Made by a program: the position numbers and the translations under genes | Part shown: in pieces, positions 56,861 to 60,417 of the stretch | Numbering within the stretch: position 1 is the first letter of the stretch | How the letters are laid out: each line of letters opens with the position of its first letter | The notes under the pieces: generated by a model | Databases searched by the model: none | Seen by the model: only the letters and a program-made list of their open reading frames with translations | Told to the model about the DNA's origin: nothing | Source: Desulfovibrionaceae bacterium | Lineage (GTDB): Bacteria > Desulfobacterota > Desulfovibrionia > Desulfovibrionales > Desulfovibrionaceae | DNA length: 64,000 bases | NCBI GenBank assembly: GCA_022510785.1 | Contig: JAFLSV010000003.1 | Span: 62,001-126,000 of the forward strand | Direction: 5' to 3'

Positions 56861-57907
56861 TTATTTCACAAACATATCCGGCGCGCGCACCGCGAGCAGA
56901 TCGCGCTTCAGCAGTTCCTCGGCAATCTGCACGGCGTTGAGGGCCGCGCCCTTGCGCACGTTGTCCGCCACCACCCACAGATTGAGGCCGTTGGCTATGC
57001 TCTCGTCCTCGCGGATCCGGCCCACAAAGACCGCGTCCTCGCCGGCCGCGTCCACGGCCATGGGGTACATGGTCTGGGCGGGGTTGTCGCAGACCTGCAC
57101 CCCGGGCGCGGTGGCCAGCAGGGCGCGGGCTTCGCGGGCGCTCAGCTTTTTGGCCGTTTCAATGTTGATCGCTTCGGAATGGCCGTAAAACACGGGCACG
57201 CGCACGCAGGTGGCGGTCACGCGGATGCCGGGATCCTCCATGATTTTGGTGGTCTCGTGCACCATTTTCATCTCTTCCCTGGTGTATTCGTTGTCCAGGA
57301 AGACATCGATATGCGGCAGGCAGTTGAAGGCGATGCGGTGGGGATAGGTCTTGATTTCCGGGTCGCGCCCGTTGAAGAGCTGGCGCACCTGGCTTTCAAG
57401 CTCGGCAATGCCCTTCTGCCCCGTGCCGCTCACGGCCTGGTAGGTGGAGACCACCACGCGCCGGATGCCGGCGGCGTCGTGCAGGGGCTTGAGGGCCACG
57501 ACCATCTGAATGGTGGAGCAGTTGGGGTTGGCGATGATGCCGTTGTGATTTTCCAGCGCGTGCGGATTGACCTCCGGCACCACCAGGGGACAGCGATCGT
57601 CCATGCGCCAGGCGCTGGAGTTGTCCACCACCACGCAGCCCGACGCCGCGGCATAGGGCGCGTATTCCAGCGAGGTGGAGCCGCCCGCTGAAAAAAGGGC
57701 CAGGTTCACGCCCCTGAAGGATTCCCTGGTCAGCTCCCGCACCACCAGTTCATCATCCCCGTAGGGCACCCTGCTGCCCGCCGAGCGGGACGAGGCCAGG
57801 GCCAGCACCGAGCTGGCGGGAAAATTCCGTTCGGCCAGCACGCTCAGCATTTCGCGCCCGACGGCGCCCGTGGCCCCCGCGACGGCCACCACCAGAGACT
57901 TCTTCAT
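56861..57907 (-). CDS. asd: Aspartate-semialdehyde dehydrogenase
   Basis: A 348-residue NADPH-dependent enzyme that reduces aspartyl phosphate to the semialdehyde, the branch point for lysine, threonine, methionine and diaminopimelate. The N-terminal nucleotide loop is AVAGATGAVGREM, the catalytic Cys130 lies in NPNCSTIQMV, and the substrate His/Arg region is PHRIAFN and later EDPGIRVTATCVRVPVFYGHSE. It starts with a normal ATG preceded by CAGGAG. It is followed by the aminotransferase gene on the same strand. Confidence 0.97.
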   Translation of the reverse strand: MKKSLVVAVAGATGAVGREMLSVLAERNFPASSVLALASSRSAGSRVPYGDDELVVRELTRESFRGVNLALFSAGGSTSLEYAPYAAASGCVVVDNSSAWRMDDRCPLVVPEVNPHALENHNGIIANPNCSTIQMVVALKPLHDAAGIRRVVVSTYQAVSGTGQKGIAELESQVRQLFNGRDPEIKTYPHRIAFNCLPHIDVFLDNEYTREEMKMVHETTKIMEDPGIRVTATCVRVPVFYGHSEAINIETAKKLSAREARALLATAPGVQVCDNPAQTMYPMAVDAAGEDAVFVGRIREDESIANGLNLWVVADNVRKGAALNAVQIAEELLKRDLLAVRAPDMFVK

Positions 57908-58104: not shown

Positions 58105-59265
58105 TTACCCGGGGGCCGTGAATTCGCCGCTTTTTCCGCCCGCCTTGTACACAAGCCGCACATCGCGGATGATCATGTCCTTCTGCGCGGCTTTGGCCAT
58201 GTCATAGATGGTGGCCGCCGCTGTCTGCACGGCGAACAGGGCCTCCATTTCCACGCCTGTCGCGCCCCTGGCGCGGACTTCGCTTTCCAGAATCACGGCC
58301 GGGGGCTCATCCTGAATGCTGAAACGCAGGTCGGCGTAAGTGATGGAGAGCGGGTGACAGAGGGGAATCATCTCCCAGGTGCGTTTGGCCGCCATGATGC
58401 CCGCTATTTTGGCCGCGGTCAGCACGTCGCCCTTGGGCAGAGCCCTGCGGCGCAGCAGATCCAGGGTTTCCGCCCGCATTTCCACCACGCCCCGGGCCCG
58501 GGCCACGCGCTCGCTTTCGCCCTTGCCCCCCACATCCACCATGCGCAGAGAGCCGTCGGCCGCCAGATGCGAAAAGGCCGGCGCGCGCACCGTGTGTATC
58601 AGGCTTTGCAGAACTTCATCCGGCGTCAGATCGGAGGTGTCGATGACATGGGCGTCCGGCGCGGGCCGCAGCGGATCCACGGCGCGCGTGCGATCCTGTT
58701 CGTCGCGGGCCCTGATGGCCGCCAGCACGGCCGCTTTGTCCGCCGCTTCGCCCCGCTGCGCCAGATCGCGGCAGCGCCGTTCGGCGCGGACTTCGGGCCG
58801 GGCGTCCAGAAAAAACTTGTGCTGGGCTTCGGGAAAGACCCGTGTGCCCATGTCCCGCCCTTCCGCCACCAGCGACCAGCGGCGGCCCATATCGCGCTGC
58901 ACGCTTTGCAGCGCTTCGCGCAGCGCGGGCAGGCGGGCCACCAGCGAGGCCAGCCGGCCGGCCTTTTCGGTGCGGATTTCATCGCCCACCATCCGGCCAT
59001 TGCAGAAAAGGCACAGGCTGTCCGGATTCGAGGGGCAGCTCTCCAGGCTGAAGCGGTATTCCGCGCAGCGCCGCCTGAGTTCCCCGTCGCTGAGGTCGGC
59101 CGCGCCCGCGCCCAGGCCCAGGCCCAGGGTGCGGTACATGGCGCCGGTATCCAGATACGCCACGCCCAGGCTTGCGGCCAGGCGGCGGGCCATGGTGCTT
59201 TTGCCCACGCCGGCCGGGCCGTCCAGGGTGATGACCGAAGGGCTGTCGCGCAGGTCTGGATTCAT
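58105..59265 (-). CDS. Fused cytidylate kinase - cyclic pyranopterin monophosphate synthase (Cmk-MoaC)
   Basis: A 386-residue single-frame fusion. Residues 1-228 are CMP kinase: P-loop GPAGVGKS (16-23), YLDTGAMYRTLGL, and EGRDMGTRVFPEA; it phosphorylates CMP and dCMP. Residues about 231-386 are MoaC, which makes cyclic pyranopterin monophosphate in molybdenum cofactor synthesis: RMVDVGGKGE, LPKGDVLTAAKIAGI, PLCHPLS, GVEMEAL and DMAKAAQKDMII with GGKSGEF. Both active regions look intact. There is no linker, stop or frameshift at the joint (near 58581). The ATG is 3 bases after hisC, with AAGGAG inside the hisC end. Fused CMK-MoaC is unusual. Confidence 0.93.
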   Translation of the reverse strand: MNPDLRDSPSVITLDGPAGVGKSTMARRLAASLGVAYLDTGAMYRTLGLGLGAGAADLSDGELRRRCAEYRFSLESCPSNPDSLCLFCNGRMVGDEIRTEKAGRLASLVARLPALREALQSVQRDMGRRWSLVAEGRDMGTRVFPEAQHKFFLDARPEVRAERRCRDLAQRGEAADKAAVLAAIRARDEQDRTRAVDPLRPAPDAHVIDTSDLTPDEVLQSLIHTVRAPAFSHLAADGSLRMVDVGGKGESERVARARGVVEMRAETLDLLRRRALPKGDVLTAAKIAGIMAAKRTWEMIPLCHPLSITYADLRFSIQDEPPAVILESEVRARGATGVEMEALFAVQTAAATIYDMAKAAQKDMIIRDVRLVYKAGGKSGEFTAPG

Positions 59266-59268
59266 GTC

Positions 59269-60417
59269 TCATCTCCTTAAGGAACAGGGGCGCAGAATAT
59301 CCGCGCATGCGGCCAGGAAGCACCGGTTTTCGTCGTCTGTTCCCACACTGACCCGCAGCCAGTCTGGCAGATGGTAGCCGCCCAGACCGCGCACAATGAC
59401 GCCCCGTTCCAGCAGGGCCTGATGCAGGGCGCGGGCGTCCGGCCCAGCCTTGGGCGGCGCGAACATCAGAAAATTGGCGTGGCTGGGCAGCACCGCGCAG
59501 CCCAGCGCCCGCAGTCCCTCGGACAGGACGGCGCGGCCCTCGGCCGTCACGCGCCGGGTCAGGCTGTGGAAGGATTCATCCCCCAGGGCGGCTATGGCGG
59601 CCTGTTCGGCCAGCAGGTTCACCGAAAAGGGCAGGCGTACCCGCCACATGTACTCTGCCAGGCGGGGGGGCAAAATTCCGTAGCCCACGCGCAGCCCGGC
59701 CAGGCCGTATACCTTGGAAAAGGTGCGCAGCAGGGCCAGGTTGGGCGTCTTGTCCAGGTGCCTTAAAAGGGACTCCTTTTCGTCCGCATCGTCCATGCCC
59801 GCGAAATCAATGTAGGCTTCGTCCACCACCAGCAGGCAGGCGGGGGGCAGGGCGCGGGCCACGCGCAGCAGTTCCCGCGCGGGGGCCAGCCGGCCGGAAG
59901 GGTTGTCGGGTGAGGTGATGAAGACCAGGGTCGTGTTGGCGTCCACCCGTTCCAGCAGCCCGTCGAAGTTAAAGCTGAAATCGTCGTTTAAGGGGGCGCG
60001 GCGCAGCTCCACTCCGGCCAGGCGGGCCTGGGTGACATAGAGCCCGAAGCAGGGCCGGAAGGCCACGGCGTTGTGCTCGCCGGGCACGGCCCGCACCCGG
60101 AAGAGCAGATCAATGACCTCATCCGAGCCGTTGCCCACAAAAATCCGGGCCGGCTCGACCCCCAGGCGGGCGGCCAGAGCCTCCACCAGCCGGGGATTGC
60201 CCGCCTGGGGGTAGCGGAAGACGGATGCGGCGCCGCGCTCCAGCGCCGCCCGCACCACGGGCGACACGCCCAGCGGGTTTTCGTTGCTGGCCATTTTAAT
60301 AACGCGCTCAAGGTGGTAGCGCCGGCGGATATCCTCGATGCTCAGGCCGGGTTCATAGGGCTCAAAGGCCGCCACCTCCGGGCGCACGTCATCGGGAGAG
60401 CTGAAGGGCATGGGCAT
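59269..60417 (-). CDS. hisC: Histidinol-phosphate aminotransferase
   Basis: A 382-residue PLP enzyme that makes histidinol phosphate in histidine synthesis. The family pattern is complete: SNENPLG near residue 44, the aminotransferase segment ITSPDNPSG, DEAYIDF, and the PLP lysine Lys235 in TFSKVYGLAGLRVGYG. The C-terminal LRVSVGT is the phosphate loop. Two close ATGs (60417 and 60411) exist. HisC-type enzymes can also act on aromatic amino acids; no other his gene is in the window. The cmk-moaC gene starts 3 bases after its stop. Confidence 0.95.
   Translation of the reverse strand: MPMPFSSPDDVRPEVAAFEPYEPGLSIEDIRRRYHLERVIKMASNENPLGVSPVVRAALERGAASVFRYPQAGNPRLVEALAARLGVEPARIFVGNGSDEVIDLLFRVRAVPGEHNAVAFRPCFGLYVTQARLAGVELRRAPLNDDFSFNFDGLLERVDANTTLVFITSPDNPSGRLAPARELLRVARALPPACLLVVDEAYIDFAGMDDADEKESLLRHLDKTPNLALLRTFSKVYGLAGLRVGYGILPPRLAEYMWRVRLPFSVNLLAEQAAIAALGDESFHSLTRRVTAEGRAVLSEGLRALGCAVLPSHANFLMFAPPKAGPDARALHQALLERGVIVRGLGGYHLPDWLRVSVGTDDENRCFLAACADILRPCSLRR

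Follow-up and report, generated by a model that had tools for sequence, protein, structure and literature searches.

In the 64,000-nucleotide stretch of Desulfovibrionaceae DNA analyzed here (the window), one open reading frame of 386 amino acids on the minus strand (58105..59265) encodes a cytidylate kinase (Cmk) joined to the molybdenum cofactor protein MoaC. This Cmk-MoaC fusion is genuine and not an assembly error, because both Pfam domains are present in all 120 listed homologues, the best 120 of 6532 found (identity, 51 to 100%). Within the genus of the source organism (g1), the fusion exists in a live form, with both active sites intact, and in a form in which the kinase is followed by a MoaC tail that has lost its active-site residues and an intact MoaC is encoded elsewhere, joined to MogA. 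We consider it probable that an old fusion of neighboring genes gave rise to a protein with two separate reactions and that the tail later became chemically dead and was kept as a structural module.

Two intact halves on one chain

The fusion frame opens with ATG and contains no internal stop. Its kinase half (residues 12 to 227; 58585..59232, minus strand) matches PF02224 with 204.3 bits over profile positions 1 to 210 of 211 (curated cut-off, 26) and TIGR00017 with 183.5 bits (cut-off, 135.55), and its MoaC half (residues 242 to 377; 58135..58542, minus strand) matches PF01967 with 172.3 bits over positions 1 to 136 of 136 (cut-off, 27) and TIGR00581 with 172.5 bits (cut-off, 141.5). The stretch between both Pfam matches (residues 228 to 241; 58543..58584, minus strand) includes a short linker and an FSHL segment of the MoaC N terminus. 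An earlier reading of this DNA made from its letters alone (the sequence-only reading) had Cmk running into MoaC in one frame with neither stop nor linker; the uninterrupted frame stands, but five residues separate the aligned domain ends, and up to 48 do so in other members of an alignment of 36 fusions (the window protein, 34 listed homologues, and the fusion of genome G086). All of the motifs named in that reading (GPAGVGKS, GRDMG, LCHPLS, GVEMEA, QKDMII, and GGKSGEF) are found in the translation.

The same reading held that both halves keep their catalytic motifs, and the alignment bears this out. MoaC positions K51, K67, H77, E112, M113, E114, D128, K131, and K147, which we take to be the active-site list and whose numbering is consistent with K51A and Asp128Ala entries, do not vary across the 36 aligned fusions. 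In the kinase half, K22, R137, D138, R187, D188, D191, and R194 (the P-loop lysine, GRD, and RD..D..R), presumably the catalytic residues, are invariant in every row; of the eleven Cmk positions compared, nine are invariant and the remaining two vary as S/T and one N for D. Among live fusions, the MoaC half was the slower-changing one in all 28 comparisons among eight proteins. In the genome of the window (G000; 55 contigs), the fusion is the single match to either half, so that the second, stand-alone cmk or moaC for which the sequence-only reading had proposed to look was not found there.

Given these conserved residues and the single copy, the N-terminal half would phosphorylate cytidine monophosphate (CMP) and dCMP, and the C-terminal half would turn 3',8-cH2GTP into cyclic pyranopterin monophosphate (cPMP). 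MoaC is usually hexameric, and the live protein is likely a MoaC hexamer with the kinase domains tethered outside by the short, flexible linker, the two reactions being predicted to proceed independently on one chain and without channelling. A structure model of the fusion has a mean predicted local distance difference test score (pLDDT) of 89.7 and a predicted template modelling score (pTM) of 0.62 and is least certain in the first ten residues and in residues 231 to 250 (block means, 65 and 69); the low pTM and the uncertain junction are as would be expected of two domains on a tether.

The homologues come from a search of 5.8 billion proteins, in which 7997 candidates were scored. Among 149 genomes of the family, the live fusion occurs in at least six, namely G000, G147, and G070 (g1), G073 and G092 (g7), and G086 (g40), a minimum since the fetched loci were translated in part only. 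The architecture thus spans at least three genus groups and is not limited to one branch, as the sequence-only reading had thought possible. A contig scan with the fusion as query returned at least 80 loci with their best segments in the kinase half, very near genomes possibly being left out. Among plasmid records, 109 had a match to the fusion and none covered 80% of the query.

Dead tails and a second MoaC in the genus

The genus search covered 19 genomes. The fusion is live in G000, G147, and G070, in none of which a further MoaC was found. Twelve others (G089, G154, G115, G149, G042, G155, G138, G127, G103, G153, G157, and G158, the kinase of the last being truncated at a contig start) encode Cmk followed in frame by 115 to 126 more residues, and the frame is open in all twelve. 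Each of these twelve genomes has an additional, intact MoaC elsewhere that continues in the same frame into a MoCF (MogA-type) domain, seen by Pfam in G127 as PF01967 plus PF00994. In G150 and G151 the MoaC-MogA protein alone was found, and in G152 fragments alone; the contig of G156 ends 32 residues past Cmk, and this genome was left out of the dead-tail count and of the Cmk tree. The gene order usp-hisC-cmk is kept in 14 of 14 other genus loci tested, including those of the live-fusion genomes G147 and G070, and it is therefore the same kinase gene in all of them.

The loss of active-site residues in the tails is extensive. K51, E112, M113, E114, K131, and K147 are kept in none of the twelve, K67 and H77 in one each, and D128 in two; judged by these residues, the tails are not classed as MoaC enzymes. 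In the four tails scanned, PF01967 was not reported for G127, G042, and G154 and reached 13.0 bits in G089 (gathering threshold, 27), and genome searches of G089, G127, G042, and G153, four of the dead-tail group, gave no second MoaC match. The predicted fold of the G089 tail is still that of MoaC, and the other tails are 27 to 34% identical to it. With the G127 tail alone as query, a search that depended on shared words and failed to reach the remaining dead tails gave five proteins; four of these are complete (86 to 98% identity), and in each of the five, Cmk is the sole Pfam domain.

The ratio of nonsynonymous to synonymous substitution rates (dN/dS) of the tail is 0.42, 0.20, 0.41, 0.28, and 0.28 in five close pairs, compared with 0.067 to 0.096 for the kinase to which it is attached and 0.056 for the live fused MoaC (G147/G070). 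Neutral simulations matched for divergence and composition reached the value of the tail in 12, 0, 0, 0, and 0 of 200 runs for the five pairs. Because neutral evolution so rarely produces such values, the tail is under relaxed but remaining constraint.

Two side observations concern the same genomes. In the live-fusion genomes, MogA carries an N-terminal extension of about 100 residues (L172:2411-3496, plus strand; L174:4064-5032, plus strand; L175:4056-4841, minus strand), the place of which is occupied by MoaC in the dead-tail genomes. The extension has no Pfam match in the two scanned (G000 and G147), and the idea that it is a remnant of MoaC was rejected, as its hhalign E value of 0.18 falls within the range of parallel comparisons (0.14 to 0.78). 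A second cmk-like frame in G138 (L167; G138:C28) is chimeric, the residue at its join being undetermined; it likely reflects contamination or misassembly and was left out of all counts; its second part resembles, by eye, a resistance protein.

History of the two halves and competing explanations

Selected members of the 120 homologues entered the trees (27 in the first MoaC tree and 25 in the Cmk tree). In the latter, the dead-tail kinases of all twelve genomes fall into one clade (100/99), which lies among the fused kinases and implies one inactivation after the fusion. A single clade of all fused and dead kinases was rejected by the approximately unbiased (AU) test (P = 0.0001). The MoaC half must therefore have disappeared at least twice or, less probably, been acquired at least twice, a result to be taken with care in a tree that holds several long branches. 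The MoaC trees were made without five MoaC-MogA rows (G103, G150, G151, G155, and G156), to thin the set, and the second of them additionally lacked G086 and four stand-alone MoaC rows of g40 that are distant from the rest. The MoaC domains of MoaC-MogA form one clade (100/100), and in both trees they cluster with the fused MoaC domains, to the exclusion of the family's stand-alone MoaC (90/90 and 93/92). A branch separating the fused MoaC rows from all other rows occurred in 0% of the 200 bootstrap trees of the first MoaC tree and in 14% for the second. It is likely, though not proven, that the MoaC of MoaC-MogA lies inside the fused group.

Elsewhere in the family the two halves have parted in other ways. 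The g40 kinases of G039, G067, G101, and G113 group with the fused G086 kinase (99/94), and the stand-alone MoaC of these four genomes (L192 to L195) is unlinked and 43 to 45% identical to fused MoaC; this low identity and the very long branch of the protein suggest that it came from outside the family and replaced the native one. Cmk shares one frame with HisC in G039 (L150:4017-5816, minus strand; 600 amino acids; PF00155 plus PF02224) and in G101 (L151). In G067 and G113, frames of comparable length have Cmk as their last part, and HisC-Cmk is a second Cmk fusion in the family. No MoaC match was obtained in G006 and G047 (g7) or in three g13 genomes, the g13 genomes being only 73 to 83% complete; the Cmk frames of G076 and G012 (g13) and of G006 and G047 have 229 to 241 residues and are, in their present-day form, tailless.

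We propose that a family-native moaC came to lie behind cmk in a hisC-cmk operon, which likely led to the fusion. In one clade, a MoaC copy, likely from the fused one, would then have joined MogA and taken over the chemistry, after which the MoaC domain on the kinase would have lost its active site in place, its fold being predicted to persist. That the tail changes more slowly than expected under neutrality in most pairs is likely due to a dependence of the kinase on it for folding, stability, or oligomeric state. The full sequence of events is put forward tentatively, as a possible rather than a probable course: a copy of the fused MoaC became attached to MogA and took over its reaction, and the domain left behind on the essential kinase, now a pseudoenzyme, turned into a structural part that the kinase needs.

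A functional reason for the fusion had been suggested by the sequence-only reading, in which cytidine supply is joined to cofactor synthesis through the cytidine triphosphate (CTP) needed for the cytosine dinucleotide cofactor. Fusions often unite proteins of one process, and the conservation of both active sites in the 36 aligned rows also counts in favor of such coupling; we nevertheless regard it as very unlikely. Cmk makes cytidine diphosphate, one step short of CTP, and a linker of 5 to 48 residues argues against a precise domain interface. MoaC, for its part, uses the MoaA product 3',8-cH2GTP and belongs to the opening stage of cofactor synthesis, from guanosine triphosphate to cPMP (PMC5352715). 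The CTP idea fails, moreover, because relatives separate the two halves: twelve have a dead MoaC on the kinase and an intact one on MogA, and in g40 relatives other than G086 MoaC is unlinked and divergent, with the kinase joined to HisC in the two genomes examined. In view of this swapping of partners, chance fusion with a neighbor fits better than channelling. A shared pathway does not appear to lie behind the fusion, and a pathway link between the halves is unsupported. An assembly or sequencing error that removed a stop codon between two genes, as envisaged near position 58581, has a negligible probability: every one of the listed homologues, which come from several sources, has the same architecture, as do at least six separate genomes, with the full fusion present in G000, G147, and G070.

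The dead tails might be plain decaying remnants without a role, caught before their deletion. Selection on them is relaxed, with a dN/dS two to six times that of Cmk in the same species, neutrality fits one of the five pairs, and the tails are diverse, as their identity to the G089 tail shows. However, a frame of similar length is open in 12 of 12 species, none of 200 neutral simulations came out as low in four of the five pairs, the predicted fold is kept in the one tail modelled, and G076, G012, G006, and G047, in which no MoaC match was obtained, have a Cmk that is tailless today; we think it unlikely that the tails are remnants only. We also doubt that MoaC-MogA and Cmk-MoaC are both old products of an early moaC duplication followed by lineage-wise losses, with no copy moving from kinase to MogA. 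The fused MoaC rows as one clade were not rejected (AU P = 0.478), as such a history would have it, but the common grouping of fused and MogA-joined MoaC apart from the stand-alone form and the rarity of bootstrap trees with the fused rows alone on one side speak against it, and an early duplication would need more losses, since the dead-tail kinases nest among the fused ones.

Several points weigh against our preferred explanation of an old neighbor fusion with a tail retained for its structure. The AU result just mentioned is one of them. The G127-G103 pair gives no clear rejection of neutrality (12 of 200 simulations; bootstrap, 0.15 to 1.29), all five pairs come from one clade, so that their histories are not fully independent, and for two pairs synonymous divergence is above 1 (1.10 and 1.83), a range in which the simple method gives rough values. 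The predicted fold is that of one tail, G089, the least decayed of them, and a MoaC hexamer bearing six kinases is an assumption. Finally, the 55 contigs of G000 yielded neither MoaA nor MoaE nor MoeA; nine radical S-adenosylmethionine matches were obtained in them, all far below the moaA cut-off. The sites at which G070 has MoaA and MoeA are recognizable in G000 by their orthologous neighbors, with the genes themselves absent there. Most likely MoaA exists in the organism and G000 has an assembly gap, because the MoaA protein P0143 and the window's own protein (P0001) are both recorded on contigs of 414,186 bases (contig C23 of G000 has 142,610 bases); this leaves MoaE and MoeA unaccounted for. 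An intact MoaC outliving a lost cofactor pathway in G000 was considered and dropped on the P0143 evidence.

G000 also has QrcB and a gene of the DMSO reductase family that passes no narrower NCBIfam cut-off; behind the latter lies a frame that appears ferredoxin-like by eye. These genes fit a working cofactor pathway. In the genus, the Pfam MoaE domain is absent from 17 of 19 genomes and the MoaA C-terminal domain is present in 14; the molybdopterin synthase of this genus may be highly divergent or replaced. Many g1 genomes, G000 not among them, have molybdopterin oxidoreductase frames of about 1017 amino acids with one TGA inside, which resemble selenocysteine formate dehydrogenases.

Locus and comparison with known systems

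Upstream of the fusion lies its conserved neighbor hisC, encoding histidinol-phosphate aminotransferase (59269..60417, minus strand; TIGR01141, 309.9 bits against a cut-off of 276.55), the stop codon of which is followed after 3 bases by the fusion start. A ribosome-binding-like site, AGGAGA, identical to AGGAGG in five of six positions, is located 6 bases before the cmk ATG (59272..59277, minus strand). The possibility that MoaC is also made on its own from an internal start codon was considered and rejected: the seven in-frame start-like codons near the junction score 2 to 4 of 6, against 5 of 6 for this site. Downstream on the same strand, and given for context only, is asd, for aspartate-semialdehyde dehydrogenase (56861..57907, minus strand; NF011456 and TIGR01296 over cut-off), which also lies downstream of the fusion in G147 and G070.

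Guessing function from this fusion would mislead, as the halves part in close relatives. The genus does offer, ready for comparison, live and dead versions of one fused enzyme domain, with which it can be tested on few proteins whether a domain joined by chance becomes indispensable for the fold of an essential enzyme after losing its own chemistry. Annotation is also affected, since Pfam missed the four dead tails scanned and one public source names the protein plain MoaC (P0007). The Joint Genome Institute (JGI) label "cytidylate kinase/molybdenum cofactor biosynthesis protein MoaC" describes the same architecture (P0040 and P0043; reverse order in P0041), and no label seen marks the dead-tail form. 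A literature search, to which most subscription journals were out of reach, gave no paper on a Cmk-MoaC fusion, a MoaC pseudoenzyme, or MoaC active-site lysines and nothing on cytidylate kinase as a bifunctional domain fusion; cytidylate kinase and MoaC co-occur there in one E. coli proteome.

The MoaC of E. coli (PDB 1ekr, 1eks, 4pya, and 4pyd) aligns without gaps over residues 231 to 383 of the fusion protein and shares the nine active-site positions but is a stand-alone protein without a kinase domain. Three Cmk fusions are named in databases, with pantoate--beta-alanine ligase (PanC; NF010004), with 3-phosphoshikimate 1-carboxyvinyltransferase (NF008816), and with the GTPase Der (NF007071). 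The Cmk half of the window protein matches all three models, and the protein misses their whole-model cut-offs (188.5 of 524, 163.3 of 943, and 139.3 of 953 bits, respectively). As in the window, these fusions join Cmk to a protein of an unrelated pathway, none of them that of MoaC; in contrast, the partner here is MoaC and is C terminal. The known MoaC fusions MoaC/MoaB (NF002947), MoaC/MOSC (NF011069), and MoaC/MobA (NF011070) likewise unite MoaC with a second protein, and the MoaC-MogA of the dead-tail genomes is in outline of the MoaC/MoaB kind. In these, however, MoaC is N terminal and its partners belong to the same pathway or are cofactor related, whereas in the window MoaC is C terminal to a nucleotide kinase. 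Hence, Cmk and MoaC are each known from other fusions and their pairing is already a database label, and it is the live-to-dead series that deserves attention.
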